NCBI GenBank assembly: GCA_024401215.1
Contig: JAKSLL010000019.1
Coordinates: 1 to 54,763, forward strand
Reading direction: 5' to 3'
From: Bacteroidaceae bacterium
GTDB lineage: Bacteria; Bacteroidota; Bacteroidia; Bacteroidales; Bacteroidaceae
Length of the DNA: 54,763 nucleotides
Numbering within the stretch: position 1 is the stretch's first letter; each line of letters opens with the position of its first letter. This document shows, piece after piece, positions 34,234-47,518 of the stretch. The position numbers and the translations under genes are program-made. The notes below the pieces were generated by a model. The model made no database searches, was not told the DNA's origin, and saw only the letters and a list, made by a program, of their open reading frames with translations.

Positions 34234-34238
34234 ATTAT

Positions 34239-36083
34239 TTACATGTATAAAACACCAAGTATCATGGTTTTATCATCAGTTTCATCTTTGAATTTCTGAT
34301 TTCCTTCTTTGATGAACTGATACCATTCACTTGCTCTTTCATTCTCTGGCTTTCCTTGTTTTCTTGACTGTTTAAGTGTCTCACACAATGGTTCAAAGAA
34401 TCCCTTATGAGGCGTATTTGGATCATAGAACTTACCAGTTGTTTTATTTAATTGATTGTATAACCATGATGTATTTTCACATCCGTCACTCATCAATGTA
34501 AATGCAGAAACTGGCTGATTTATAACTCTAGCCTCAGGAACCATGACACCGGACATTTCGTAGAATGGAATATCCCAAAATTCTGAAGGTAGAAATATCG
34601 TCTGATTAGCTTCTTCTCCCTTATGAGGTGTTAACATACTATGCCATTCGCCGTTCATATCTCGATAGCCAGAACGTCCATCACCAACATGAGCAATCAA
34701 AAGACCCAAAGGTGAATGTATCACAACAATCACAGTTGCACTTAACGATTTAAAGACTATACCTCTTTGTTCTGCAAATTTCTGGATGTCATCATGCACT
34801 AACCTAAGTCCCTTCAAGGCAAGTTTTGTCCAACGAATCTCTGAAGGCAATTCATTTTTCGTCATCCAACCTTCATTCTCAACAACAGTTTTCATATAGT
34901 GCAAAGTTCTAGATACTGTTATCTTTGAACCTACATCTGAATGCTTGGCAGAGCCTGCACCATCAGAAGTTATAGCGATGCCCCAACCGTCACCAAGATA
35001 TTCATAAGCAGAATAATCCTGGCATGGTATATTGGAACTGATATGACCATTTCCTTGTACAGATGCTCCTACAACAATCCATTCTCCAGCATCTTTTGCA
35101 TATGCAACAATGTTCTGAGGTAGTGGATTCGGAGTAGGTTTTGGAGTAGGAACTGGCTGAGGTGATGGAACTGGCTGAGGTGATGGATCTGGCTTTGGAG
35201 TTGGGATCGGAGTTGGTTGTGGTGTTGGGATTGGCTTTGGAGTTGGAACAGGTGTGACTTGAGGAGTTGACACTGGTTCTGTTTCCTCGTTGCCTTTTTC
35301 AACCGCAGCTTTCCTGTTCATAATTTTTGAAAACATCTTTGCTATACTTTTCCTCTTAAAGAAGGCTATCAGACCAGCAATTAATGCCACAAAAGTAACA
35401 ACCACCCAATTTCCAAAAGCTCGAAGAATAAAGATAATTTTATCAAACATTCCTTGTTCTTTTTTGTTTAGATCTTTTACTTTTACTATATTGTTATTCG
35501 TAAAATCATTATTTGCTTTATCTTTTGATGGTTCATTTACAACCTCAGTAGAAGTAGATGAATCCTTATTTTCTTGAATTTCTTCTTGTGGTAACAAGAA
35601 AAGAAATCTTCCATTCTTATACTCTTTTCGGTAAGACTTTCCCGATTCTTGAATACATTTACATTCTTTGGTAAGATCTTCAATTACTGATTTGAAATTT
35701 GCAAATTTTTCATCAATTTCAGACTCTTTGTCCCCATAGGCTTTTGTTAATTCTGCTTTGTATGTCAAACGCATGGTATCAACAAGTTGGGCATATTGAT
35801 CAACTGTGTTTTTTGACAATCCTTTTGTTGATGTATTAACAATTCCATAGAGTTTTGAATCTTTCTTTTTAAGTGCAGTTTTAAAAAGCGAAAGATTGGA
35901 ATTTTCAATCTTGTTCAGTACTTTTTCATCTTCAAAGCCAGCAATTTGGCAAGCCGCTCTGGTCATATCAGCTCTAATCTCACCATACAAATTTATCAAA
36001 GTTGTGTCTGGTATAACAACCTCGGCGTTAGCTTGCAAAGCAAGAAATAAACAAATAATTATTAGAGAGAAATATCTTTTCAT
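34239..36083 (-). CDS. Transmembrane PP2C-family phosphatase
   Basis: 614 residues. Signal peptide 1-20, an exported helical region (21-213) with a Cys pair (C141, C143), then one membrane helix (about 214-242) that places the rest inside the cell. A proline-rich linker (about 274-322; PTPKPxPTPQP) precedes the PP2C domain (about 335-614). Its metal-site motifs are [15 protein letters not shown] (372-386), [18 protein letters not shown] and DDKTMILG. It should dephosphorylate proteins modified by the neighbouring kinase. An exported sensor region joined to a cytoplasmic phosphatase suggests envelope signalling. It begins 12 nt after the second VWA gene. Confidence 0.85.
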
Positions 36084-36095
36084 TTCAAATATTCA

Positions 36096-36857
36096 TTAAA
36101 TTGAAAACGATTCCATCCAATCAGTTGAACCATTTGACAAATCAACAGTTTGACCTTCTTCGGCTGATACGACAGTACCCATACTTGCACTAAGCCACTT
36201 GAAGAAAGAGCTAAACTTTGTTCCCTTTAGTTTCATCGCAGGAATTCGACCTTGAATCTGTTGCAGTACACTCATATTGGCGTTATCTACACCTATTGGA
36301 AGGAACTCGTATTTCTTACTTGCCGTATCTTGTTGTATTCTTTGAGCAAGAGCTGGAACATTTTGATTTGCATTTGGCTCTCCGTCAGTCATGAGTATAA
36401 TCCATGGACGATAATACGGTTGGTTTGTACTTTTGTACCACTGTTTTCTAGCAGCAACAAGATCAATTGCCTCATATACAGCATCAACCATTGCTGTATC
36501 TCCATCTGCTTCGAGTACTGGGAATGATGAGTTTGAAATCAATGCTGGTTCCTGAATAGTTTGGACATAGTCACCAAACGTTACAATTGACAATTCAAGT
36601 CTTTGCGAGGTAGTTGCATCATTCTCAATTTCATTGTAGAAATCATGCAAACCACTAATCAAATTATCCAACTTAGAAATACCACCAGTTACTACATCGT
36701 ATATCTTACCATCTACAGATACAGTTTGACCTGTATATTCTATATTTGTATTGTCAATGACTTCATTCATAGACCCTGATATATCAAGAACTAAGACACA
36801 AAGACATTTCTGTTCATAGTTTTCTGCTGCTTCAGCTGAGAAATCATTTTTAGCCAT
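36096..36857 (-). CDS. VWA-domain (TerY-like) protein, second copy
   Basis: A 253-residue cytoplasmic VWA protein with a complete MIDAS metal site: DISGSM near residue 24, GDTAMVDAV, and LMTDGEPNANQ. The first 24 residues (MAKNDFSAEAAENYEQKCLC...) are almost identical to those of the neighbouring VWA gene, and the C-terminal KLKGTKFSSFFKWLSASMGT is shared. It has an extra loop after DISGSM (NEVIDNTNIEYTGQTVSVDG). ATG 36857 was chosen over an earlier in-frame start because it matches the paralogue. It is 14 nt downstream of the first copy, so a tandem duplication. Confidence 0.85.
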   Translation of the reverse strand: MAKNDFSAEAAENYEQKCLCVLVLDISGSMNEVIDNTNIEYTGQTVSVDGKIYDVVTGGISKLDNLISGLHDFYNEIENDATTSQRLELSIVTFGDYVQTIQEPALISNSSFPVLEADGDTAMVDAVYEAIDLVAARKQWYKSTNQPYYRPWIILMTDGEPNANQNVPALAQRIQQDTASKKYEFLPIGVDNANMSVLQQIQGRIPAMKLKGTKFSSFFKWLSASMGTVVSAEEGQTVDLSNGSTDWMESFSI

Positions 36858-36871
36858 AATAGTAATATTTT

Positions 36872-37549
36872 TTAGATTGTAAATGCTGACATCCAATCAT
36901 CTGCACCTGCAGATAAATCGACCTGCTGGCCTTCCTCTGCGGAAACCACAGTACCCATACTTGCACTAAGCCACTTGAAAAAAGAACTAAACTTCGTTCC
37001 CTGAAGTTTCATTGCAGGGATGCCACTTTCTATTTGTTTAAGAATGCTCATCTTGGCACCTTCTACGCCAATAGGTAAAAAAGCGTACTTCTTTGCGGCA
37101 ACATCCAGCTTAATGCGCTGAGCCAATCCTGCAACATCCTGATCACTATCAGGCTCTCCATCGGTCATGAGTATGATCCAAGGGCGATAGTATGCCTGAT
37201 TTGTGTCTTTGTACCACTGCTTACGTGCAGCAACTTTGTCAATAGCATGGTTTACAGCAGTAACCATAGCTGTTGAGCCAGAAGCGCTTAGAGTTGGCAT
37301 TGTAAAATTCTCGACAAGAGCTGGCTCTTGAACTGTATTTACAACGTGACTAAACGTAATTAAAGAGACTTCAAGTCGCTGACGAGTTGTATTGTCTTTG
37401 TCAATCTCTTGATAAAAGTCTTGAAGACCTTTGTTTAATTCTTGAATTGGTTCACCTGACATTGAGCCAGAAACATCAAGAACCAATACGCATAAGCATT
37501 TCTGTTCGTAGTTTTCTGCTGCTTCAGCCGAGAAATCGTTCTTTGCCAT
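36872..37549 (-). CDS. VWA-domain (TerY-like) protein, first copy
   Basis: A 225-residue VWA protein of the TerY type. MIDAS motif residues: DVSGSM, GSTAMVTAV and LMTDGEPDSDQ. It ends DLSAGADDWMSAFTI. There is no signal peptide or membrane helix, so it is cytosolic. TerY-like VWA proteins encoded with a PP2C phosphatase and a kinase are known as a predicted phosphorylation triad linked to tellurite/stress systems. No terA-F genes are seen here. It probably serves as the phosphorylated adaptor. Confidence 0.87.
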   Translation of the reverse strand: MAKNDFSAEAAENYEQKCLCVLVLDVSGSMSGEPIQELNKGLQDFYQEIDKDNTTRQRLEVSLITFSHVVNTVQEPALVENFTMPTLSASGSTAMVTAVNHAIDKVAARKQWYKDTNQAYYRPWIILMTDGEPDSDQDVAGLAQRIKLDVAAKKYAFLPIGVEGAKMSILKQIESGIPAMKLQGTKFSSFFKWLSASMGTVVSAEEGQQVDLSAGADDWMSAFTI

Positions 37550-37589
37550 ATGGATTTATTATTTATTGATTAAAAGTCTTAGATCATTA

Positions 37590-38234
37590 TTATCTCAGAA
37601 CTCCAGAATGACTAAAAGCTGTATAGCCAAACCATACTATATAGATAAGAGACAAAACAATACATATTAATGTAGCAGGAGTTGCCGCTTGATTCTTAGA
37701 ACAAGAACAAACACCTTTATATAAAGAAGTCCATAAATAGATCATTGTACAACCCATCCAGCACCACAACAAACAATTATAAATTTGTGCGCATGCATAT
37801 AAACCTTGAAATTGTGCATATATTGCAACACAAAAGGTTAGGATTCCACATGACATCATAACATAATTGCCAGCCTTGGACAATTTATTTAATCCAATTA
37901 TAATTAAAAGGATTGAAGTAAGCATTGAAGTGAAAACACTTCCAATTAGGCAATTGTGTAACTCACCACCACCTGTTTTACATGTGCCTTCCAGTTGATT
38001 TATCCACAATATTTCCTTGGTGTCGTATGCAACCACTCCTATGCAGAAAAATGTAGCGGCATTGAGTATTACGCATAGACTTAAAAGAGCTCCAGAAACA
38101 GAAGAAGATGTCACCAATTTTTTATTAGATTGACTTCTATGCATTGGTGTCTGTATTGTAATTGTATTGCCGCATTTTGGACAATAGCTCATTCCTGAAG
38201 TTAACTGCGCACCACAGTTTGGACAATAATTCAT
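37590..38234 (-). CDS. Zinc-ribbon membrane protein
   Basis: 214 residues. The N-terminal zinc ribbon YCPNCG...YCPKCG uses C4, C7, C18 and C21. A short linker leads to about five membrane helices (from about residue 44 to the end). The ribbon should face the cytoplasm. It begins the five-gene block, 40 nt ahead of the first VWA gene, so it is probably the membrane partner of the kinase/phosphatase system. The type resembles zinc_ribbon_2 membrane proteins of unknown function. Confidence 0.75.
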   Translation of the reverse strand: MNYCPNCGAQLTSGMSYCPKCGNTITIQTPMHRSQSNKKLVTSSSVSGALLSLCVILNAATFFCIGVVAYDTKEILWINQLEGTCKTGGGELHNCLIGSVFTSMLTSILLIIIGLNKLSKAGNYVMMSCGILTFCVAIYAQFQGLYACAQIYNCLLWCWMGCTMIYLWTSLYKGVCSCSKNQAATPATLICIVLSLIYIVWFGYTAFSHSGVLR

Positions 38235-38410: not shown

Positions 38411-38776
38411 TTAAAACAAGGTCTTCTTCTTATAGACAATAGAACCAAAGGCACTATTCTCCGTTATCAGTCCGTTGTAGAAACGAAATGTGCTACTACT
38501 TCCATCCATGTTGTTGGTCGTGATATTCCCCATAGCATCCATTTCCCAATAGAACGAATATTTGCTACGAACAGAGCCACCATCAAGCAATGTAAAAGTT
38601 CCTGTCCCGTCTTGGTTAAAACGAAGTTGCGAAATTAGATAATCGTCTGATGGGTCATCAGCGCGATACTCTTTCCATACACCATAAACTGAGTCAGACC
38701 CCGTACTACTGCATGAAATTGTAATAGAGCCAACTAACATAATTGCAATGACAATCCAAAAATAAAAATGTTTCAT
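38411..38776 (-). CDS. Small lipoprotein (lipocalin-like)
   Basis: A 121-residue lipoprotein. The signal segment ends at a lipobox (ITISC). It continues as a short beta-rich domain, VYGVWKEYRADDPSDDYLISQLRF, with W and alternating hydrophobics (landmarks VWKEYR, LRFNQDGTGTFTLLDGG, YSFYWEMD). This looks like the small lipocalin-like or DUF5004-type lipoproteins of Bacteroidales. It lies between the zinc-ribbon operon and the first LytTR gene. Function unknown. Confidence 0.65.
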   Translation of the reverse strand: MKHFYFWIVIAIMLVGSITISCSSTGSDSVYGVWKEYRADDPSDDYLISQLRFNQDGTGTFTLLDGGSVRSKYSFYWEMDAMGNITTNNMDGSSSTFRFYNGLITENSAFGSIVYKKKTLF

Positions 38777-38889: not shown

Positions 38890-39321
38890 CTATCCCTTTT
38901 CATGAAATGCCTGCATCTTGCCGTTGTGAGTTTTGAAGTCCTCAATCGCAACAAGCGACTGCTCACCAATATTCTGCTTCAACTCTCGCAGGGAATCTTT
39001 CGAGGCTGATATTGCAATCAGCGGCAGTCCTGGCGAATCACGCAGCAAAATATTTTTGCGAAGGACGTTTATCTGATATAGATACTTTGTGTTGATGTAA
39101 TGGCTCTTTCCGACTCTTACAAATTGTATATTATCTATAGCCTTAAACACTTCTGCAAGACTGGTCATGCTAGTAAGCAAGTTTGTTGAAATGTTTCCCA
39201 AGCTCACCATCTTGATGTAGTTGCCATTAGATTCAAAGTATATCACTTCATTCAAGTGCACCCGGATTAGTTCATCACGAGTGGAAAAATACACGAGATC
39301 GTTGATTTTTAAGTCTTCCAT
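38890..39321 (-). CDS. Receiver-less LytTR DNA-binding protein (LytTR1)
   Basis: A 143-residue single-domain transcription factor. The LytTR fold is spread over about 10-115: LIRVHLNEVIYFESNGNYIKM (landmark VIYFESNGNYIKM), FVRVGKSHYINTKYLYQINVL. It has no receiver domain, so a membrane partner or ligand must control it. It is highly similar to the LytTR gene at 45617-46054. Its own promoter carries the TGTATGAA direct repeat, implying autoregulation. Relative to its paralogue, one extra base near the end (GGATAGTATG against GGCAGTATG) brings the stop forward two codons. Confidence 0.85.
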   Translation of the reverse strand: MEDLKINDLVYFSTRDELIRVHLNEVIYFESNGNYIKMVSLGNISTNLLTSMTSLAEVFKAIDNIQFVRVGKSHYINTKYLYQINVLRKNILLRDSPGLPLIAISASKDSLRELKQNIGEQSLVAIEDFKTHNGKMQAFHEKG

Positions 39322-39337
39322 TTCTTTGATTTTTATG

Positions 39338-39413
39338 CAAAGTTATGCATACTATTGTTCACTGAAAAACAATATCAGCCATGTTGTATGAACAGGTGTT
39401 TATAATGTATGAA
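39338..39413 (-). promoter_or_regulatory. LytTR-type control element A (LytTR1 promoter)
   Basis: Plus-strand TGTATGAA at 39385-39392 and 39406-39413 (period 21). The -7 box reads TAACTTTG on the minus strand (plus 39338-39345). The -33 position is a weak TTTT. The repeat edge lies exactly 40 nt from the -7 box, as in the three other elements. Confidence 0.75.
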
Positions 39414-39498
39414 ATAAAATAAAGGTGTATAAAATCGATGTTATATATAGAGAGGAATGCATTTTATACATAAAATATGGTACTACTAAAACACAAAA

Positions 39499-39824
39499 CG
39501 TAGGCATCCCTCTCTACCGCCCGATTCTTGAGGTCCTAGGAAAACCAGAATAGTTGAACGTGTAGAGTGTCTGCCTACGCCAAAGTATGAAGCATGCATC
39601 CCCGAAAAGTGTGCTTAGAGGATATAGCAAACCCTCACACGCACACTCCGGGATACAGTTATAACATACCCGTAGCAGTCACTTCTGACATTGTCCACTG
39701 AACTATTCGTTGAAATTTCCTAGGTTCCAAGAATCCAATTGACAAAGCATCAATGACGCCTTTACATTATGTAGTGTCCCACCCAGCCGCACACCCTTTT
39801 ATGATGGCACAGCGTAGGCAACGA
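39499..39824 (-). ncRNA. Probable structured non-coding RNA (~325 nt)
   Basis: An ORF-free, strongly self-complementary block. On the minus strand a TAACTTTG box (plus 39830-39837) would start transcription near 39824. The 3' end would be the TGCCTACG/CGTAGGCA hairpin (39499-39506 with 39572-39579) followed by TTTTGTGTTTT. An internal hairpin pairs CCCG...AGTGTGC with GCACACT...CGGG (39600-39652). Long-range arms pair GATTCTTG, CCTAGGAAA and GAATAGTT (39523-39559) with their complements at 39701-39735. A third copy of CGTAGGCA (39813-39820) could compete for pairing. RNase P, tmRNA and SRP signatures are absent. 6S-like or another Bacteroidales RNA family is possible. Confidence 0.5.
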
Positions 39825-39921
39825 CACTGCAAAGTTACTCTTTTTTATGAGGAGCGAAGTAAAAAAAATAAAAATACACACAAAAATTGCCTTTTAACTC
39901 AAAAACACACACAAAAAGCAC

Positions 39922-39991
39922 CTTAGTAATGGTAAAATTAATAACTCCCTAAAGTTTCTCGAGCAATCAATATCAGCAGCTGGTCTTTTTG
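39922..39991. repeat. Dispersed ~75-bp repeat, copy 2
   Basis: Matches 1906-1980: CTTAGTAATGGTAAAATTAA, then AAAGTTTCTCGAGCAATCAA. It lies in the ORF-free stretch between the RNA candidate and the YiiX-like gene. The rest of that stretch (39992-40152) is AT-rich with no feature I can support. Confidence 0.7.
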
Positions 39992-40152
39992 TATATATGA
40001 GTATAAATAACCTACGGCAATTTGATAATGAATAATTGATAATTAAAAATCGGCAAAAACATTTATGTGCTTTTGCCGAACAAATCATACATTAATTGTC
40101 AATTAACAATAAGCCTGAATTTATTAGTATCAAGCTAAACCATAAGCCTAGC

Positions 40153-40752
40153 TTAGATGAATCTCAATTCGTCAGAAAAGAAAAGATCTGAAGGTGCAAC
40201 AACTAAACCGTCGGGATCCATGCCACGCTTTTTCATCACCTTTTCCATACCGAAAGTAAAATATCTCGTCATTGGTTTAGGTTCACAAAGTTCCGTTCTT
40301 AGCTGATATTTGTAAATGTCATAGACAAGTTCAGAGCAATAGTAATTACTGTTGTTGAATGAGAATGCCAAATCATATCTTCTGCCTAACAAATGACCAT
40401 AACGGATTTTTCTGCTAATGCCCGACTTCGGACGCTTCACCCAATAAGCCCCACATCTGCCTCGCTTGATGAAATCGCGAAGGGGCGTAGTTTTAAGAGT
40501 GGAACTTGCCTCAAGCACATAAGGTTTACCAGATATCATCACTACCACTCCGCAATGCGTCAAAGGACTACCCGTTGCAATTGCTATGAGTGGCGACTGA
40601 TTGGAGGTTGACATATGGAATATCACATCGCCTTCTCGCACATCAGGGTTCGAGGCGAAACGAATGCCACGATAAGGAAGCAACACTATAAGAACCAATC
40701 CAATAATTAAGTATAAAATGATTTTACGCTTAGTAAGAGATTTTTTATTCAT
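40153..40752 (-). CDS. YiiX/YebB-family permuted papain-like enzyme
   Basis: A 199-residue protein with one N-terminal membrane helix (about 10-27); the rest is exported. The domain is a circularly permuted NlpC/P60 fold. It has GDVIFHMSTS, then catalytic-type H66 in GSPLTHCGVV, E81 in YVLEAS, and C139 in NYYCSELVYDIY; His before Cys is the permuted order. Relatives cleave or hydrolyse amide or thioester bonds in envelope or lipid substrates. It follows the CHAP-like gene by 12 nt and so belongs to the unit driven by control element B. Confidence 0.8.
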   Translation of the reverse strand: MNKKSLTKRKIILYLIIGLVLIVLLPYRGIRFASNPDVREGDVIFHMSTSNQSPLIAIATGSPLTHCGVVVMISGKPYVLEASSTLKTTPLRDFIKRGRCGAYWVKRPKSGISRKIRYGHLLGRRYDLAFSFNNSNYYCSELVYDIYKYQLRTELCEPKPMTRYFTFGMEKVMKKRGMDPDGLVVAPSDLFFSDELRFI

Positions 40753-40764
40753 ATTCTATACAAT

Positions 40765-41211
40765 TTATTTATTTTTTCTAAATATCACATAAGGAACTGG
40801 TCGCTTGTATGGGCACATGCTTCTTTGCTTAAAGTCTGAGATCCAACAGTTTCCTGTATATATCGCAATATGCCCCCATATACTATGCTTGCCGTTCTCG
40901 ATGACTACCACATCTCCCTTCTGCGGACGGAATCCGTTCATCACATTCCCTTTGCCTGAAGCGACCTTCTCATAACCATATAATGGAAGAACATCACGAT
41001 ATGCCCATGCTGGCAAGATAATCATTGGACACCCACCACTTTGCATAGAGCGCATCACAAACCATGCACAGCATGAGTGAGATTTGCTCAAATAGCTACT
41101 TTCTGCATGAGCAACAGCTTTGTCAATGTTATAGCTATATGTTCTGCACCATATCAAGTATCCAAGCAGAACAACTACTAAAGAAATAATGATTTTTTGT
41201 TTCGTCTTCAT
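40765..41211 (-). CDS. CHAP-like exported cysteine amidase
   Basis: A 148-residue protein with one N-terminal helix (about 6-22). The domain has SHSCCAWFVMRSMQSGG with C47/C48 as nucleophile candidates, KGDVVVIE, WGHIAIYTG with H114, and WISDFKQ with D126. That is the Cys-His-Asp order of CHAP/NlpC peptidoglycan amidases and similar to toxin amidases. ATG 41211 is supported because the -7 box (41244-41251) lies downstream of the alternative ATG at 41256. First gene of a two-gene unit with the YiiX-like gene; expression should follow LytTR control. Confidence 0.7.
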   Translation of the reverse strand: MKTKQKIIISLVVVLLGYLIWCRTYSYNIDKAVAHAESSYLSKSHSCCAWFVMRSMQSGGCPMIILPAWAYRDVLPLYGYEKVASGKGNVMNGFRPQKGDVVVIENGKHSIWGHIAIYTGNCWISDFKQRSMCPYKRPVPYVIFRKNK

Positions 41212-41243
41212 TCTTTTATAATTTGTTTCGTTTGATTTCATTG

Positions 41244-41319
41244 CAAAATTATTCATAATTCATTTGTTGATAGAAACAATTGCTGCTGGTTGTATGAACT
41301 ACCTCTATTTATGTATGAA
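41244..41319 (-). promoter_or_regulatory. LytTR-type control element B (CHAP-YiiX unit)
   Basis: TGTATGAA at 41291-41298 and 41312-41319 (period 21). The -7 box reads TAATTTTG (plus 41244-41251), again 40 nt from the repeat edge. No good -33 box is present, as expected for an activator-dependent promoter. Confidence 0.75.
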
Positions 41320-41361
41320 CTGCTCCGCAAGCAATTTACGACACCTCTATTCTCAGCCAAA

Positions 41362-41398
41362 AAAGAGGGTGTGTCTATGACTTTGACACACCCTCTTT
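41362..41398. terminator. Bidirectional terminator ending the six-gene unit
   Basis: A 14-bp perfect stem (AAAGAGGGTGTGTC with GACACACCCTCTTT) and a 9-nt loop. It lies just past the membrane-protein gene at 41445 and separates it from control element B. Confidence 0.85.
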
Positions 41399-41444
41399 CC
41401 CTTTTTATTCACCACTTTGTCGTTAGAATGCTAAAACTATTTCT

Positions 41445-41978
41445 TTATTGTAAATATTGTAAACAATGAATAATCACCGTTTTGATGATTTCTAATGCAG
41501 CTTGGGACGTGCCTGTAACTAATATTAATACTATTATTGCTACCACAAAAATCATTAATGTATATAAAAACATCATAAAAGGAGAAATAGCAACCAGCAA
41601 TTTGCTTTTCCATGAGCATTTTATTAACTCTTTCTTCTTCGCGTAATTAGGAAGAGCAAATGGGGAAAATATCCATAACAAATAACAAACAGCTATAGGT
41701 CTATATTTGGGGCTAAAAAGTAAAGCAATTAATATGATTGCAAAAGCAACTACAATCACTAATACAATAAGAAACAAAGCAAGTACTCCTATAATTATCA
41801 CAAAACCAATTCCAAGGAACACCCAATTCGCTGCATAATATCCATCCCCAGGTGGTGGCAAATCATCAACGTCTTCGGCGAATAGCATAACATTACAAAA
41901 TAAGGCTACGATTATCGCAATCATTTTTTGATAACATATAAAGAACCCATTGCCATTGGGAATCAATAACTTTCTCAT
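41445..41978 (-). CDS. Polytopic membrane protein
   Basis: 177 residues, three or four hydrophobic helices, no known family. A second ATG at 41924 gives MIAIIVALFCNVMLFAEDVDD, a good signal peptide, and may be the true start (159 residues). It has a short exported segment DLPPPGDGYYAANW, then two long adjacent helices (about 48-90), a Tyr/Lys loop (SPKYRP; NYAKKKELIK) and a final long helix. It is the last gene of the unit, 11 nt after the transglutaminase-like gene. The small size and position would suit an immunity or partner protein (inference only). Confidence 0.6.
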   Translation of the reverse strand: MRKLLIPNGNGFFICYQKMIAIIVALFCNVMLFAEDVDDLPPPGDGYYAANWVFLGIGFVIIIGVLALFLIVLVIVVAFAIILIALLFSPKYRPIAVCYLLWIFSPFALPNYAKKKELIKCSWKSKLLVAISPFMMFLYTLMIFVVAIIVLILVTGTSQAALEIIKTVIIHCLQYLQ

Positions 41979-41989
41979 AATCTGTAAAT

Positions 41990-42526
41990 TTACAATGTAG
42001 TTTCACAATCTTTCCAAAAGACATCATACAAGCTTGCGTCAGCATATATCGTTTTACCATCAATGTGGTACTCCACAAAGTCATGATCTTTCACAAAGTT
42101 CTTCCACCTTTTGTTTGGCATACACCATTTAAGGATATCGCAAAGATTGACTCCGTAGAACATGACATAGCCAACCACAGGTTTTGCAGACGCATTTATA
42201 CCATTCGTTCGGAAAGCATAATTACTGATGCCGGCACACATCTGCGCATAACCTACACAATTGGCTTTCCCATTCGCAAGGTTGTTCTTAACCGTAAATG
42301 ACAGCCTTTTAGCCGTTTTCTTTATGCTATACAAACGTATTTCCTCTGCCGACATGCCAGCCGTTTCTGCTTTTATTTCTTCTTTGAGAGCAGCATCTGG
42401 ATGATACGGATTGGTTCTGTCACCGAATTTTGTTAGCGTCAAAGGCGACCAAACGACATAGATTACAATAAGAATCAATATAGCAAAACCAATTATTTTA
42501 AGTTTCTTCATGTTTTGTTGATTCAT
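41990..42526 (-). CDS. Transglutaminase-like exported protein
   Basis: 178 residues, one N-terminal membrane helix (about 8-27), then an exported domain with a transglutaminase-type Cys-His-Asp triad: C90 in GKANCVGYAQMC, H148 in DHDFVEYHIDG and D163 in TIYADASLYD. This superfamily includes proteases and cross-linking enzymes with the papain fold. ATG 42511 is an alternative start. It is the fifth gene of the unit driven by element C and represents a third papain-like family within 5 kb. Confidence 0.72.
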   Translation of the reverse strand: MNQQNMKKLKIIGFAILILIVIYVVWSPLTLTKFGDRTNPYHPDAALKEEIKAETAGMSAEEIRLYSIKKTAKRLSFTVKNNLANGKANCVGYAQMCAGISNYAFRTNGINASAKPVVGYVMFYGVNLCDILKWCMPNKRWKNFVKDHDFVEYHIDGKTIYADASLYDVFWKDCETTL

Positions 42527-42560
42527 TTTGCTATTCCTGTATTTGTTGATTTTTAAATTG

Positions 42561-43709
42561 CTACTGCTTTTTTATATTATCAGAGATTATTCTGTTAGCT
42601 TTTTCTCCGCCATACTTTATAGCCAACTCCCGCATCTTCTCAAAATCAGATGTGTTGTTCTGTTTATAGTAAACTAATGCTAAGAACATGTAGGCTTCAG
42701 GATTCTTGTCATCTAGTTTGAGTATCTCCTTCGAGAAATGCTCTGTCTCCTCTAAGAAGTCATGAGAGTAGAATAAATCTATAGCTTCAATATAGTTCTC
42801 AACAGCCTTAGATGTGTTCTTTTTTATCGTGTAGATATCAGCCAGATTGATATAAGGGCGTGCATAATAAGGATTGATTTTTAGGGTTTTGTCATAACAC
42901 TCTATTGCTTTTGAGTAATCTTTCATAAGATGGTAGGCACAAGCTAATGATTGCCATCCCATATAGTCATTCGGATATTCTTCGCAGTATTGTTTGAGCA
43001 CAACTGATGCCTCTTTATACTTTTCCAAGTTGCACAAAGCATCAGCATAACCAATAGTAAGAGTACCGAGGGTGTCACCATCTGCAATCACTTTCTCACA
43101 TAGATATACACTTGTGTTCCAGTCCTCATTGTTAAGGGCGTTAACAATGGATTCTCTCATATCGTTTGAATTCTCAGGTAATGACAATGCTCCCAAACCT
43201 ATTCGAACACTACCAGCATTTGCCTTGCTTTCATCTTTTTCTGGAGACTCGATCACCATTATAACTCCAATTCTATAGCCTTTGTAGTTGTAGAAATTCA
43301 TGTATGACATGCTGTAAATGCCATCACTTGTCGCAGTCCATTCTTTCTGCTTCAATGGTTCACAATTATTATAGCGATTGTACAAAATACTGTCCATGCG
43401 ATCAAAAAGCGAACGAGCATCTTCTGCAGAGCCTTGAAAAACACAGGTAGTAGATGTCCGTCCTTCTGTCAGTTCATAGTCGTTGCCAAAACCGTCTGTC
43501 CACTCTTCAAGCTTTGTTCCATTCCAATCCAACTTTCCCGAAAGCAGAAGCTTGTGGAATTCTGCAACCTGTTCGTCCTTGTCAAGATTCAATCCAAAGA
43601 ATTCATTTGTCTTCCATTCTTCGAATGGCTGATTGGTATTTGTACATGCTGATAGAGTGAAACAACACATAAGTACAAATGATACGTTAAGCATTATTCT
43701 ATTAAACAT
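42561..43709 (-). CDS. TPR-repeat lipoprotein
   Basis: A 382-residue lipoprotein. The signal peptide ends at the lipobox LSAC. An N-terminal domain of about 170 residues (KTNEFFGLNLDKDE...; YRIGVIMVIES) has no known match. At least four tetratricopeptide repeats follow (about 195-350), for example GWQSLACAYHLMKDYSKAIE, YARPYINLADIYTIKKNTSK and EAYMFLALVYYKQNN. These usually bind protein partners. Cotranscribed with exported enzymes, it may hold or recruit them at a membrane (inference). The ATG at 43709 was preferred to an upstream TTG. Confidence 0.75.
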   Translation of the reverse strand: MFNRIMLNVSFVLMCCFTLSACTNTNQPFEEWKTNEFFGLNLDKDEQVAEFHKLLLSGKLDWNGTKLEEWTDGFGNDYELTEGRTSTTCVFQGSAEDARSLFDRMDSILYNRYNNCEPLKQKEWTATSDGIYSMSYMNFYNYKGYRIGVIMVIESPEKDESKANAGSVRIGLGALSLPENSNDMRESIVNALNNEDWNTSVYLCEKVIADGDTLGTLTIGYADALCNLEKYKEASVVLKQYCEEYPNDYMGWQSLACAYHLMKDYSKAIECYDKTLKINPYYARPYINLADIYTIKKNTSKAVENYIEAIDLFYSHDFLEETEHFSKEILKLDDKNPEAYMFLALVYYKQNNTSDFEKMRELAIKYGGEKANRIISDNIKKQ

Positions 43710-43819
43710 AAATAATAACAATATTAATTGTTAGAAACTTTTGTTGTGTATCTCTTTTTCCTATGAAAATCATCGCTTTCTTGTCGCCTTTTCTAAGTCT
43801 TCTTGCTATTATTAGAGAA

Positions 43820-44248
43820 TCAATATGAGAAACTGCAATTTGGCAATGATCTTAAAGTATTTATTTTGAGGTCGTCATACAAATCACTTGCCAATCTTGC
43901 ACCTGGACTACCGTTATAATATGCATCGGCCCTGTGCTGCTCCACAGAGTTTATGTCCTCGCGTATTTGCATTTCACTCTCCCAAGGATGCTCTCCTTGT
44001 TGTCCGTAGTTTGCGTATGCAACGATAGCAATTCCATTTTTAATTACCATCTTACTTCTCTCATCAGAAGAATACACATCTCCTGTATATGCTTCACCAT
44101 TGTAATAAGCATACCTCAAGCCATTCACTGTTCTGATATCAATATCATAAGTGTGTATTTTCTTTTGTCTATTATTACTATTTTCATAACACGAGCATGT
44201 CAATACACATGCTATCAAAATCACAATCAAATTCATTACTTTTTTCAT
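43820..44248 (-). CDS. MORN/YwqK-like small lipoprotein
   Basis: A 142-residue lipoprotein with lipobox Cys near 18 (LTCSC). The middle holds GLRYAYYNGEAYTGDVY and MVIKNG, resembling the MORN-like repeat of YwqK-family antitoxin proteins. The rest is unassigned, with REDINSVEQHRADAYYNG and a conserved-looking PNCSFSY end. It lies third in the element C unit between two other lipoprotein genes. An immunity role is only a guess from family resemblance and context. Confidence 0.6.
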   Translation of the reverse strand: MKKVMNLIVILIACVLTCSCYENSNNRQKKIHTYDIDIRTVNGLRYAYYNGEAYTGDVYSSDERSKMVIKNGIAIVAYANYGQQGEHPWESEMQIREDINSVEQHRADAYYNGSPGARLASDLYDDLKINTLRSLPNCSFSY

Positions 44249-44306
44249 AATCTTATACAATTTTCGATGATAACATCCTGTTTAATCATTTTACAACCTT
44301 TGAGTT

Positions 44307-44801
44307 TTAATAAATATTGAAGAAATAAGTACAATTGTCACCACGACTTCTATACTTGTATTTACTTACATCAAGCATTATTCTATCTGGCACTCCACTA
44401 CCATCAACAGGGACATCAAGCAAAGTCGGAAGTGTACTAATAGTTGATATGTCATTTTTGTTAATAGAGTACTTTTCTATATCATAAAGCACAAGGTAAA
44501 AACCGTCTTGTGTGTTAACAGCTTTTGCATATTTTGAATTGATATCATACCAGGTTTCACTATTGCCAATATACTGGATTCCAACTACTGAATATATTTG
44601 TTCTGCTTCGGCATTATTATCGTCCATACTATAATCGCCACCTTGATATGCGCCATCACTTTCTTCATACTCGTTGTCAGCCAATTGATCAATTTCGTGT
44701 AATACTTTGCCGATAACATGCGCCTTGCGAGGATTGCAAGAAGACATTGCTACTGTTACCATTAGTGACAGCACAATAAAAGATAATAGTTTTGTTTTCA
44801 T
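44307..44801 (-). CDS. Small lipoprotein of unknown function
   Basis: A 164-residue lipoprotein. Lipobox MSSC with Cys21. An acidic linker (about 42-66; NEYEESDGAYQGGDYSMDDN) is followed by a small domain with YSVVGIQYIGNSETWYDI, DGFYLVLYDIEKY and a C-terminal DNCTYFFNIY. No family was recognised. It is second in the unit, 57 nt after the NlpC/P60-like gene. Confidence 0.6.
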   Translation of the reverse strand: MKTKLLSFIVLSLMVTVAMSSCNPRKAHVIGKVLHEIDQLADNEYEESDGAYQGGDYSMDDNNAEAEQIYSVVGIQYIGNSETWYDINSKYAKAVNTQDGFYLVLYDIEKYSINKNDISTISTLPTLLDVPVDGSGVPDRIMLDVSKYKYRSRGDNCTYFFNIY

Positions 44802-44858
44802 ACGTGAATCATTCGTTTTCTATCATTATTTACTTAAGTAGTGATAAAAATTAGTTCT

Positions 44859-45392
44859 TTACTTCCCTGTATATCTATAATACTTCACATCACAGAAACC
44901 TACAGCATGCACGGCAAGAAAAGGTTTTACAGGTAGAAAATGAACAAAAATGCCTCCAACAACTGTATTTGCACAGAGCGGTCCGAGTAAAGAGTTCATT
45001 GTATAAACTCCCGCATGACGTGCTCCATCCCACTTGCGAAGGAAGAGCATCATATCACCAGGAACAGCTTCGTCAGCACTCACCTCATGGAATCCCCATC
45101 TACCAGGATTTGCCATGAACTTGTTGCAATTACCAGCACGATGCCCATTATTGTAGAGGGAACTGGCGGTATTGATGCAAGAAAAAGGTTTCCATGATGA
45201 ATTGGTAAAATCCTTTCTTGAATCCATTGGCAGATCCACACAATTGCGAAAATCATAATTAGCACCCTTGCAAGCTAAGGCTCGCTTTGCATATTCCCAC
45301 TGAGGCGATGTTGTGGCATGAAAGTAGAACCCAATTTGAACTATCACCAAAAGTGCTATTAGCACTAATACTGTCTTAAAGAACTTTTTCAT
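44859..45392 (-). CDS. NlpC/P60-like exported cysteine hydrolase
   Basis: 177 residues, one N-terminal helix (about 5-24), the rest exported. Papain-like marks are C72 in PFSCINTASSLYNNG and H126 in PGDMMLFLRKWDGARHAGVY, the usual Cys...PGD...H order of NlpC/P60 and amidase families. A third polar residue is not certain. Extra cysteines (C41, C51, C89) may form disulphides in the periplasm. First gene of a six-gene unit starting under control element C. The likely target is peptidoglycan or an envelope peptide. Confidence 0.65.
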   Translation of the reverse strand: MKKFFKTVLVLIALLVIVQIGFYFHATTSPQWEYAKRALACKGANYDFRNCVDLPMDSRKDFTNSSWKPFSCINTASSLYNNGHRAGNCNKFMANPGRWGFHEVSADEAVPGDMMLFLRKWDGARHAGVYTMNSLLGPLCANTVVGGIFVHFLPVKPFLAVHAVGFCDVKYYRYTGK

Positions 45393-45425
45393 ATCTTCTT
45401 CATAAATTAAATTTGAATTATGTCA

Positions 45426-45501
45426 CAAAGGTACGTTCGTTTCCCACAAGTACAAAAAACAAAGATACTCGTTGTATGAACACCTCAGTTTTGTGTATGA
45501 A
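45426..45501 (-). promoter_or_regulatory. LytTR-type control element C (six-gene unit)
   Basis: TGTATGAA at 45473-45480 and 45494-45501 (period 21). On the minus strand TTTG (plus 45453-45456), 19 nt, TACCTTTG (plus 45426-45433). The repeat edge is 40 nt from the -7 box and 16 nt from the -33 box. Confidence 0.8.
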
Positions 45502-45616
45502 ATATAGAATACTGCTCAGCTGCAGTTCAAAAGTACTAATTTTTCGTAAAGTTACATTTTCAAACTCATATAAGATTCTACATTCTCATCATAATTTATG
45601 TACACCATCGAATACT

Positions 45617-46054
45617 TTACATACTGCCTCTTTCACGAAAGGCTTTCATCTTGCCATTGTGAGTCTTGAAACCCTCAATCGCAAGAAGAGAGCGCTCACC
45701 AATGCTCTGTCTCAAGCTACGCAACGAATCTTTTGAGACTGACAGAGAGATGATCGGCAGTCCTGGCGAGTCACGCAACAGAAGTTGCCTGCGCAGAATG
45801 TTTATCTGATACAGATGACTGGTGTTGATGTAATGGCTCTTGCCAACCCTTACAAACCAAACACTCTCAATAGCATTGAACACTTCAGTCAAACACACCA
45901 TGCTCGTCAATAGGTTTGCGGCTATATTGCCTACACCAACCATCTTGATGTAGTTACCATTCGACTCAAAATATATCACGTCATGAAGATGCACTCGGAT
46001 AAGTTCATCACGAGTGGAGAAATACACGAGATCATCAGTCCTCTTATTTTCCAT
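45617..46054 (-). CDS. Receiver-less LytTR DNA-binding protein (LytTR2)
   Basis: A 145-residue paralogue of LytTR1. It shares DLVYFSTRDELIRVHL, VIYFESNGNYIKMV, FVRVGKSHYINT, LLRDSPGLP and FKTHNGKM. It has the LytTR fold only, with no receiver or sensor domain. It lies 70 nt downstream of a gene for a protein with about eight membrane helices, the arrangement of LytTR regulatory systems in which a membrane protein restrains the regulator (known from streptococcal HdrRM/BrsRM). Its own promoter does not carry a good direct repeat. Likely regulator of elements A-D, together with LytTR1. Confidence 0.85.
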   Translation of the reverse strand: MENKRTDDLVYFSTRDELIRVHLHDVIYFESNGNYIKMVGVGNIAANLLTSMVCLTEVFNAIESVWFVRVGKSHYINTSHLYQINILRRQLLLRDSPGLPIISLSVSKDSLRSLRQSIGERSLLAIEGFKTHNGKMKAFRERGSM

Positions 46055-46124
46055 GCTGTTGATTTTTACTCTGTTATAAACATATGTTTAGAAAATACGA
46101 ACACCTAATTATGACTAACCTTAT

Positions 46125-46937
46125 TTATGCTGTACGTTTCACGCTTTGATAGATTACTGCATTAACAATAATGTCGGCAACAAAAATGATGACAAAAATA
46201 ATGATGTTAACCATCACATAGCTCGTTCCTGTAAATGCAGCCATTTGATTCAGTTCTCTATAGCAGAGATCAAAACCATCTTCCAATGGCATCCAGTAAT
46301 GCACGCTAATAACATAAAACACAGCAGCGTGTAGCATTGCATTTATGACACAGAACGCTGTCTTCAAGATGCCTTTTCTTGTTCGCAAACATAGCATTAA
46401 TGGGGCGAGAGCTGATACCAGGCATAATCCTGCTTGCAAATAAATGTTGCCAAGCACACAAAATTCTTTGTATGTCAAGTCAAGCACCCACGCAAAATAC
46501 GCCATAATGCCACAACACTCCAAAAAGAAGTTCACCAACGGATTGCTGCCGGTTATGATGACAGCAGGAACACTCATTATACACATTATAACAATAACAA
46601 AAGCAAGGCTATACGTTATTGGACGCTTTGTCTTCTGGATGATAAAACCGATAATCACATTTGGAATAATCAATGCTAAAGTCAACACAGATACAATAAC
46701 TTTGAATTGAGTCAAAGTATTACCCATTTGTGTGATTGTATCAGCAACTTGTGATTGTACGCCAGCAATCCCACACTCTCGAATTACGACACCATAAAGA
46801 AGCACAAAAGAGTATAATACTAAACATAAGAAAAGTGCTAAAGAAGGCTCGTTGAACTCTTCTTTCATCTTCTTAAAAGACATAAAACAAGGGAAAAGGG
46901 TTGACAGAAAACAAAGAGTCAATGCTATAGTTACCAT
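46125..46937 (-). CDS. Polytopic membrane protein upstream of LytTR2
   Basis: 270 residues with about eight hydrophobic helices (about 2-20, 30-52, 78-100, 105-130, 138-157, 164-184, 190-208 and 238-262). No known motif. Loops are short, with one exported or cytoplasmic loop (VQSQVADTITQMGNTLTQFK) between helices 2 and 3. ATG 46937 was chosen; a TTG two codons earlier is less likely. Position directly before LytTR2 on the same strand suggests a membrane inhibitor or sensor for that regulator. Confidence 0.7.
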   Translation of the reverse strand: MVTIALTLCFLSTLFPCFMSFKKMKEEFNEPSLALFLCLVLYSFVLLYGVVIRECGIAGVQSQVADTITQMGNTLTQFKVIVSVLTLALIIPNVIIGFIIQKTKRPITYSLAFVIVIMCIMSVPAVIITGSNPLVNFFLECCGIMAYFAWVLDLTYKEFCVLGNIYLQAGLCLVSALAPLMLCLRTRKGILKTAFCVINAMLHAAVFYVISVHYWMPLEDGFDLCYRELNQMAAFTGTSYVMVNIIIFVIIFVADIIVNAVIYQSVKRTA

Positions 46938-46992
46938 AATCAATATTTATAAATGAGAAACAATTACATGCTTACTAACATTTTAGGCATAA

Positions 46993-47023
46993 GGGCCAAC
47001 AGACCTAAAAGATCCATTGGCCC
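46993..47023 (-). terminator. Stem-loop after the 125-residue secreted protein gene
   Basis: GGGCCAA (46993-46999) with TTGGCCC (47017-47023), loop of 17 nt. It lies 15 nt beyond the stop of the gene at 47038-47415. The T run is weak, so termination is uncertain. Confidence 0.45.
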
Positions 47024-47037
47024 ATAAATTAAGCAGA

Positions 47038-47415
47038 TTATAATTTGCCAAACACACTCTTAGCCATACTGATGATGTCAGAAGACTTCTTGGTCATAAG
47101 GCATTTACCTTTTACTTTGTCTGTCACTTCGAATGTGGTTGACTTGATGCGGTTGAGATCCTGCTCTGTGTACTTGGTGACATCCACTTCGCTATACAAG
47201 CGACAAATATCGCCTTCCTTTTGGTAATAGACAGTGATGGTGTTGCCATCGTTGAACTTGATTGTCTGCTTAACGATGAGGTTGACAGGGATGTCAAGCT
47301 TCAAAGACTGCTGGTTCTGTACTGTCATTGTCTCATTGCTAGTTGTCGCACTAGCGGTCGCTGCAGCAAATGCACTCATGAGTGCGATGCTCAGAATTGC
47401 AAAAATCTTTTTCAT
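47038..47415 (-). CDS. Small secreted protein of the LytTR regulon
   Basis: 125 residues with a clear signal peptide (cleavage near ATASA, about 24). The mature part is about 100 residues, beta-rich then helical (LIVKQTIKFNDGNTITVYYQKEGD; DVTKYTEQDLNRIK), ending SDIISMAKSVFGKL. No family recognised. It is a single-gene unit preceded by control element D, so it should be expressed with the peptidase genes. It may be a substrate, inhibitor or signal (unknown). Confidence 0.65.
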   Translation of the reverse strand: MKKIFAILSIALMSAFAAATASATTSNETMTVQNQQSLKLDIPVNLIVKQTIKFNDGNTITVYYQKEGDICRLYSEVDVTKYTEQDLNRIKSTTFEVTDKVKGKCLMTKKSSDIISMAKSVFGKL

Positions 47416-47442
47416 ATCTTGTCGTCTTTTTTATTGACGCTG

Positions 47443-47518
47443 CAAAGGTAATGCAGATTTAATACAAGACAAAAAGATATGATTGACGTTGTACGAACAC
47501 CTTAGTTTTTTGTATGAA
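47443..47518 (-). promoter_or_regulatory. LytTR-type control element D (small secreted protein)
   Basis: TGTACGAA at 47490-47497 and TGTATGAA at 47511-47518 (period 21). On the minus strand TTTG (plus 47470-47473), 19 nt, TACCTTTG (plus 47443-47450). The repeat edge is 40 nt from the -7 box, and the layout is identical to element C. Confidence 0.8.

Follow-up and report, generated by a model that had tools for sequence, protein, structure and literature searches.

Which protein reads four look-alike promoters in a short island of the genome of a gut-type bacterium of the Bacteroidaceae, and how far does their regulon extend? The stretch analysed, hereafter the window, comprises 54,763 bases (contig JAKSLL010000019.1 of assembly GCA_024401215.1, here contig C101); the assembly counts 4.35 Mb in 234 contigs and is 93.6% complete and 7% contaminated. 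An initial annotation had described the promoters as a LytTR-type regulon of fixed geometry, with two receiver-less LytTR genes of the same island, LytTR1 and LytTR2, as the presumed readers. Conservation, placement and co-occurrence bear out the regulon and its geometry, but not the choice of readers, as the sites follow a cassette of a LytTR gene and a membrane-protein gene, of which the same genome has a copy on contig C24. We therefore regard it as likely, with good confidence, that the four sites are activator sites of a LytTR regulon found across the Bacteroidales, with the C24-type cassette LytTR, held by its membrane partner, as the main reader.

All four promoters were found exactly where they had been placed, at 39338..39413 (site 1), 41244..41319 (site 2), 45426..45501 (site 3) and 47443..47518 (site 4), each on the minus strand. 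The pattern TGTAYGAA-N13-TGTATGAA has four matches in the window, while none of 100 dinucleotide shuffles contains any match; in the direction of transcription the sites read TTCATACA-N13-TTCRTACA-N39-TAnnTTTG. Sites 1, 2 and 3 have the pair TTCATACA-N13-TTCATACA and site 4 has TTCATACA-N13-TTCGTACA, and the 8-bp repeat with its N13 spacer gives the period of exactly 21 bp noted earlier in all four. The distance to the -7 box (TAACTTTG in site 1, TAATTTTG in site 2, TACCTTTG in sites 3 and 4) is invariant as well, with a gap of 39 nt in 4/4 sites, the value of 40 given earlier being the count to the first base of the box. A TTTG -33 box stands 19 nt before the -7 box in sites 3 and 4; the other two sites have TTTT and TCTA at that position, so that the earlier division into two promoters with and two without a consensus -33 box is right in substance. 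Between repeats and box the sequence looks unrelated among the four sites. Chance repeats were rejected on the dinucleotide-shuffle control, at 0 for the repeat pair, and the reversed-sequence controls, at 0 for the full pattern, in agreement with the first impression that chance is an improbable source.

A search of the whole genome, as the initial annotation had suggested, gave six exact sites, all with N39, against none in the reversed control. Two of these lie on other contigs, so the geometry holds genome-wide and the regulon is wider than the island to which it had been assigned. The first (C24:31966-32041; first repeat TTCACACA) lies about 370 nt upstream of the LytTR and membrane-protein genes of C24, and the second (C184:1825-1900) precedes an L,D-transpeptidase-like gene, a 68%-identical relative of which is the first gene below a site in locus L054. 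With N39 fixed and up to three mismatches allowed, this genome has 8 places and its reversed control none. At the same tolerance the repeat by itself is at background (69 + 67 places against 70 + 84 in the control); therefore, degenerate sites were accepted only if they had a box at the right distance and a related gene elsewhere had an exact site. C112:7361, with N39, precedes a SIMPL-family gene, and exact sites stand before the SIMPL genes of congeners G022 and G030, which are 54-56% identical to it. C57:10297, with first repeat TTCGTACC and a gap of 40, lies before a LytTR gene; in congener G032 a 79%-identical relative of that gene stands below an exact site, again with a gap of 40. The related-species comparison, also suggested at the outset, thus found that relatives of the genome's own targets keep the site. 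A third place (C204:11646, locus L270; three mismatches, N39) was not taken as a regulon member, being unsupported; it adjoins the 3' end of another small LytTR gene, with a vWA-like gene following after about 500 nt.

In 84,980 genomes scanned for TTCATACA-N13-TTCRTACA-N38-40-TAnnTTTG, at least 118 contig stretches contain it. Among the matches listed, 115 of 118 stretches have names of Bacteroidales or Bacteroidia type, including some Candidatus genera which we take to belong there, and three are called 'bacterium' only. Together with 16 sites from a search of the genus, the listed stretches hold at least 139 distinct sites. The gap is 39 in 84 of those listed, 40 in 51 and 38 in 4, a split that compares only these three values since the stretches were preselected for a gap of 38-40. 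Outside the searched pattern, the 139 listed sites share AT before the first repeat and tend to have AT or G in front of the second; those with a gap of 39 have a T-rich -33 position 15-17 nt after the repeat. Sites in other genera mainly keep the repeats and the box.

Because the gap was prescribed in these scans, the spacing was also tested without prescription. Searched alone in the 37 genomes of the genus, the repeat occurs 22 times, against 0 in the control; 16 occurrences have an exact box at 39/40 and one more (L208) has GACATTTG at 38, while four of the remaining five share one downstream sequence, which suggests a single coding stretch. Collateral TTCRTACA pairs, i.e. pairs that had not defined a locus, were counted in the 118 listed loci at spacers of 0-40, and 15 of the 19 have spacer 13; two have spacer 34 (a third copy one period on) and two have spacer 12. 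Of the 15 N13 pairs, five have an exact box at 39/40, two belong to triples as the upstream pair, and the remaining eight lack an exact box. Each of the ten pairs lacking an exact box (these eight and the two N12 pairs) has a one-mismatch box at exactly 39, against a background of 72/9,975 (0.7%) for such a box at nearby positions. The box is GAnnTTTG in 8/10, as if the activator permitted a poor -7 box. GAnnTTTG at exactly 39 nt is seen in L059, L064, L071, L101, L114, L117, L170 and L069, several of these sites lying just downstream of a gene for the membrane partner. Three repeat copies with the 21-bp period occur in L143, L164, L179 and L200, with the third copy still at the 39-nt gap in L143 and L164. 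Across the order, in a sample of 295 genomes with many members from distant families, TTCRYACA-N13-TTCRTACA-N38-40-TAnnTTTG gave 16 places in 6 genomes and 0 in the control. The repeat alone is rarer and noisier there (39 places in 22 genomes, tandem arrays included, and 2 in the control), with an exact box at 39/40 in 6 of the 31 repeat pairs looked at.

The genes below the sites point to the reader. Genes were called by a simple script, and the 24 of 139 sites lacking a called first gene of at least 60 amino acids (aa) were left out, giving 115 first genes. Among the matches listed, the commonest first-gene family is the receiver-less LytTR, with 22/115 compared to a rough expectation of about 0.3% of genes (11 LytTR matches in the own genome). 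LytTR genes of this subfamily are present in 53 of the 118 listed loci (mean 7.2 kb) and in one of 24 loci taken at random from the own genome, namely one that adjoins the C57 site. The collected loci, as listed, hold 67 distinct subfamily genes, 54 of them with a called next gene, which in 49 cases encodes one and the same family of membrane proteins. On C24 the pair consists of a 123-aa LytTR gene and the membrane-protein gene. The cassette LytTRs are about 120 aa long and contain the LytTR domain and little else, with no receiver domain and no room for membrane spans. Their partners, of about 300 aa, combine a short tail on the inner side, in which DDEIRIIG or PIIIIER is frequent, with a single predicted span (simple hydropathy gives one in nearly all members) and a NAGPA-like part outside; the two genes often overlap. 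Pfam NAGPA is matched at E 0.1 or better by 38 of the 45 partner members listed (best 1.7e-9), and the partner of L098 scores 16.8 bits against a curated cut-off of 25. PDB sequence searches gave only weak matches, and the partner of L133, used as query at E 1e-5, matches none of 50,697 phage records and one of 72,556 plasmid records. In L133, L126 and L127 the site-controlled LytTR gene starts so close to its promoter (ATG 15 nt from the first -7 base) that a nearly leaderless messenger is implied.

Across genomes, the sites follow this cassette. A partner-family match was found in 16 of the 295 genomes; 10 score at least 250 bits, each with a subfamily LytTR open reading frame (ORF) beside the partner. 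Among the six weaker ones, G187 has a subfamily LytTR beside a partner match in two pieces, which makes 11 cassette genomes, and the other five have no subfamily LytTR there. The full site occurs in 6/295 genomes, all six among the 10 high-scoring ones and hence within the 11 (Fisher 2.4e-10, or 7e-9 without the own genome). Within the genus, LytTR and partner are present in 4 of 37 genomes (G000, G022, G030 and G031), all four with exact sites; the Fisher p of 0.001 was computed with G021 counted as a cassette genome. In G021 (L259 1459-2363) the partner gene is in two frames, without an adjoining LytTR ORF, about 130 nt below a weak N39 site; the repeat there has a one-mismatch box. The seven sites found in the flanks of partner genes that had been located by protein alone all have N39, and several partner loci without a flank site have one farther along the contig.

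Several points weigh against this reading. The cut-off of 250 bits was chosen at a visible gap, after the scores had been seen. The six full-site genomes belong to three genera, so the counts are not independent, and the p-values overstate how independent they are. Five of the 11 cassette genomes of the order sample have no exact site (two of these five have weaker N39 sites near the cassette), and conversely G004 and G032 have an exact site without a cassette, that of G032 preceding another LytTR gene. The seven flank sites come from 15 partner genes searched with flanks of about 1.5 kb; three of them (G000, G022 and G030) had trained the matrix by which they were scored, and one (G021) precedes the broken partner without a LytTR. 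In 24 genomes of other families, 8 repeat pairs (1 in the control) were found, none with an exact box at 38-40. The LytTR1 and LytTR2 genes of the window stand without a membrane partner, and the inhibitory role given to the partner is drawn from analogy.

LytTR1 and LytTR2 are 73% identical to each other, i.e. duplicates, and only about 30% identical to the cassette LytTRs. They fall outside the clade of the latter, which includes C24 (SH-aLRT 99, in a quick tree that carries a long-branch warning). Their nearest congener copy, at 40% identity, is encoded on contig G022:C52, where no exact repeat pair was found. As they are divergent, partnerless and outside the clade, and as the contig of the congener copy has no exact repeat pair, the C24 LytTR was taken as the main reader, which on these comparisons it probably is. 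LytTR1 and LytTR2 would be divergent extra copies and may be co-readers of the same sites.

The following model is proposed. The direct repeats come as a pair in each promoter (consensus about ATTTCATACA), and at their period of 21 bp a pair of LytTR proteins would occupy one face of the DNA. The inner repeat is separated by 39 or 40 nt from the -7 box and by about 15-16 nt from the -33 position, a distance that would suit contact with RNA polymerase and activation at promoters with a poor -33 or -7 box. The membrane partner would hold the LytTR protein inactive at the membrane and release it on a signal from the envelope. The freed LytTR could then activate its own operon and scattered envelope-related genes, such as those for amidases, the L,D-transpeptidase, SIMPL and small secreted proteins. 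Four LytTR genes of this genome lie below sites (those of LytTR1 and C57 directly, that of C24 about 370 nt below and that of LytTR2 probably by operon), which suggests cross-regulation.

How many of these proteins bind the sites is less certain. That C24, C57, LytTR1 and LytTR2 all do so and regulate each other, as HdrR and BrsR do in Streptococcus mutans, is a serious possibility to which we give slightly less than an even chance. Four LytTR genes of one genome below one type of site, one of them through a probable operon, are what such a network would produce, and LytTR1 and LytTR2 agree with the family at the eight invariant columns of an alignment that itself contained them; the HdrRM and BrsRM regulons are reported to overlap largely (PMC6193735). 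However, at about 30% identity to the cassette LytTRs, the specificity of LytTR1 and LytTR2 may have shifted. A narrower reading, close to that of the initial annotation, makes LytTR1 and LytTR2 the dedicated readers of an island-local regulon and takes the likeness elsewhere as a mere reflection of related LytTR proteins. It would account for the position of LytTR1 immediately below site 1 and of LytTR2 as a probable gene of the site-4 operon, and for the site in L093, which stands above another LytTR of their loose group (again in a tree with a long-branch warning). It is nevertheless unlikely, given that four sites (two exact, two degenerate but supported) are found on other contigs, that the sites follow the cassette, whose clade excludes both proteins, and that congener G030 has two sites and a cassette with no LytTR1/2-like protein at E 1e-8, whereas in G013 and G014 there are LytTR2-like proteins (about 30% identity) but sites are lacking.

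A reader of another kind, e.g. an extracytoplasmic function (ECF) sigma factor or some other activator for which the LytTR genes are merely frequent targets, could be argued from the sigma-70 region 4 matches, below the Pfam cut-off, in two of three tested first-gene proteins. A sigma -35 element cannot sit across a 39-nt gap, however, and LytTR is the commonest Pfam family among the first genes listed. The 21-bp direct-repeat period is moreover that of the LytTR sites in LytTR regulatory systems (PMC6193735), and a non-LytTR reader appears very improbable. Least credible is a set of recent copies of one promoter without regulatory meaning. The duplication of LytTR1 and LytTR2 might hint at it, but their sites are differently placed, and the order-wide conservation of the geometry alone, with other genera keeping mainly repeats and box, contradicts it; it was rejected because the sequence between the elements differs. 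The preferred reading remains that of a regulon read mainly by the cassette LytTR.

Both LytTR genes named in the initial annotation are real, and one of them does stand under such a promoter: site 1 is the promoter of LytTR1 (38890..39321, minus strand; 143 aa, Pfam LytTR E 9.9e-9, about 1e-8), whose ATG lies 24 nt from where the -7 box begins. Downstream of it an ORF at 38411..38776 (minus strand) encodes a 121-aa probable lipoprotein, judged by the signal and lipobox look of its N-terminus. Site 2 precedes a gene for a CHAP/NlpC-like secreted or membrane amidase (40765..41256, minus strand; Pfam CHAP E 2e-5, just under the cut-off). Its listed ATG falls within the promoter, so an internal ATG, giving 158 aa, is probably the real start. 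The second gene below site 2 encodes a C92 permuted papain-like amidase (40153..40752, minus strand; Pfam Peptidase_C92 E 7e-18). Site 3 precedes a gene for a 177-aa probable amidase (44859..45392, minus strand; weak NLPC_P60, E 0.096), of which no relative was found below sites elsewhere among the collected site loci listed. The run of genes from there down to about 41445 is possibly one operon; it would include a TPR protein (42561..43721, minus strand; Pfam TPR) and a 178-aa protein (41990..42526, minus strand) to which the product of the second gene below an L078 site is related, with 38% identity. Site 4 precedes genes for a 125-aa secreted protein (47038..47415, minus strand), a recurrent regulon member, a 272-aa polytopic membrane protein (46125..46943, minus strand) and, in third place, LytTR2 (45617..46054, minus strand; 145 aa, Pfam LytTR E 5e-7). 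The 272-aa protein is weakly similar (25%, E 2e-7, one pair) to a membrane protein below a site of congener G022. No terminator-like elements are listed in the two gaps between 47038 and 46054, and LytTR2 is for this reason probably site-controlled too, as part of an operon.

Relatives of these targets were sought in the site loci from the listed matches, so the counts are lower bounds. The 125-aa protein of site 4 has relatives below sites in at least 10 other loci, as first gene in at least 7. C92 relatives are the first gene in at least 3 loci (L122, L153 and L165); CHAP relatives lie below sites in at least 5 other loci (first in at least 2) and L,D-transpeptidase relatives in at least 5 (first in at least 1). 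SIMPL relatives are the first gene in both of the loci in which they were found among the matches listed. Other first genes listed encode WG-repeat proteins (9), DUF4846 proteins (5), protein kinases (4) and M23 peptidases (2), and two of three suspected proteins tested match sigma-70 region 4 at the scores mentioned above. A further recurrent pair (L075, L079, L084, L102, L103, L155, L163 and others) joins a lipoprotein-like protein (about 340 aa, YYWKT...RxFDV motif; weak DUF3142 in L102, E 0.004) to a secreted-looking protein of 700-820 aa, the two genes overlapping or adjoining; two proteins of this latter kind were scanned, with no convincing Pfam match.

The plasmid record comes from a named isolate, Prevotella sp. 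E2-28, whose 205-kb plasmid pE2-28 carries LytTR and partner genes, L6465_RS15075/15070. Upstream of this cassette, across the start of the record, a relative (45%) of the 125-aa protein is encoded, and a degenerate N39 site accompanies it; another site (TTCGTACA, TTCATACA, N39, TATTTTTG), farther along, precedes a DUF4846 gene. Near the cassette (L272 716-14882) a one-strand run of genes encodes DUF1810, DUF6717, ADP-ribosylglycohydrolase, NUDIX and radical SAM proteins and a sigma-70 factor; DUF1810 and ADP-ribosylglycohydrolase genes are also found below sites in other loci. Parabacteroides faecalis AGMB00274 (L111) is another named strain that carries the cassette. A second type of LytTR gene is followed by genes for FHA-domain proteins, below a site in L119 and on C180 of the own genome (L013). 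On a Parabacteroides distasonis plasmid (L273 4492-9099), a LytTR of this second type is followed by FHA, FHA, PP2C and Ser/Thr kinase genes. In the window itself, positions 32905-38234, just downstream of LytTR1, encode a Ser/Thr kinase-like protein, a PP2C phosphatase, two vWA proteins and a zinc-ribbon protein, a group which we take to resemble a TerY-P type triad. Kinase genes and vWA- and PP2C-looking genes occur below sites in other loci as well.

Taken together, we see about an even chance that these loci represent an undescribed envelope-signalling system of the Bacteroidales, in which a LytTR activator and a single-span NAGPA-like sensor would, by way of a helix-phased LytTR site, play a role like that of an ECF sigma factor and its anti-sigma factor. 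It would control variable operons (for amidases, L,D-transpeptidase, WG-repeat and DUF4846 proteins, Ser/Thr kinases and sigma factors), permit poor -7 boxes and, in some genomes, form networks of several LytTR proteins. In the Bacteroidales, dominant bacteria of gut and rumen, control of transcription is known mainly through regulators of polysaccharide utilisation and sigma factors. A promoter signature of 76-77 bp that can be searched as a pattern, with a probable regulator and partner, would make such a regulon readable across many uncultured species. The system also offers a test of whether pairs of LytTR and membrane proteins are a general means of sensing the envelope, and the 39/40-nt rule with the GAnnTTTG boxes a direct test of LytTR activation of the unusual Bacteroidota sigma factor.

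Response regulators of the AgrA and ComE type also have a LytTR domain and bind paired direct repeats upstream of promoters, whereas LytTR1, LytTR2 and the cassette LytTRs have no receiver domain. An ordinary two-component system was rejected for this reason; kinases near the cassettes were not searched for. In ECF sigma/anti-sigma pairs, a single-span membrane protein that has an outer sensor domain and is encoded together with a soluble transcription factor holds that factor. The present system would be like these in outline if the partner indeed holds the LytTR protein, except that the factor here would be a DNA-binding activator and not a sigma factor.

The closest comparison is with the LytTR regulatory systems (LRS), known from HdrRM and BrsRM of S. 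mutans (Zou et al. 2018, PMC6193735). In that paper an LRS is described as a LytTR regulator with an inhibitor in the membrane; direct repeats, mostly separated by 11-13 bp, lie upstream of the operon promoter, and the regulation includes positive feedback. 'LRS-like' operons of B. thetaiotaomicron and B. ovatus (PMC6193735, Table 3) come from the same bacterial order and likewise have a LytTR regulator, a membrane protein and direct repeats before a TAnnTTTG-type promoter. However, their repeats are TCCGGTATTCA-11 bp-ACCGGAAATCA, their LytTR has N-terminal membrane spans and an NfeD/DUF2154 protein is encoded upstream (PMC6193735). Membership in this group was rejected, as repeats, partner and gene order differ from those of the span-less LytTR of about 120 aa with its downstream partner.

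Among the papers of the open PMC library that were listed, none describes the present system by title or abstract, and those listed as matches to the repeat letters look unrelated. As in the LRS proper, a soluble, receiver-less LytTR (the cassette LytTRs and also LytTR1 and LytTR2) is followed directly by a membrane-protein gene in the cassettes, that of C24 included, though not at LytTR1 or LytTR2. The repeats, with N13 and their 39/40-nt distance, lie shortly upstream of the operon's own promoter, an autoregulatory placement, and have further target genes; the period of 21 bp is shared too, mostly as 9 bp + 12 bp in LRS and as 8 bp + 13 bp here (PMC6193735). The differences are these: the partner is predicted to be single-span with a NAGPA-like outer domain, the repeats are TTCATACA here and of ACCACTTAT type there, and the inner repeat stands about 15-16 nt from the -33 position compared to mostly 10 in LRS. 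Besides, the -7 box is of the Bacteroidota type, many targets look envelope-related and there is more than one LytTR gene per type of site. The Pfam match of the partner is NAGPA and not DUF2154, the HdrM domain according to PMC6193735, the S. mutans proteins being compared by description only. Novel types of LRS membrane protein without homology are allowed for by the same paper. The system described here resembles the LRS class and yet appears to be one not previously described.

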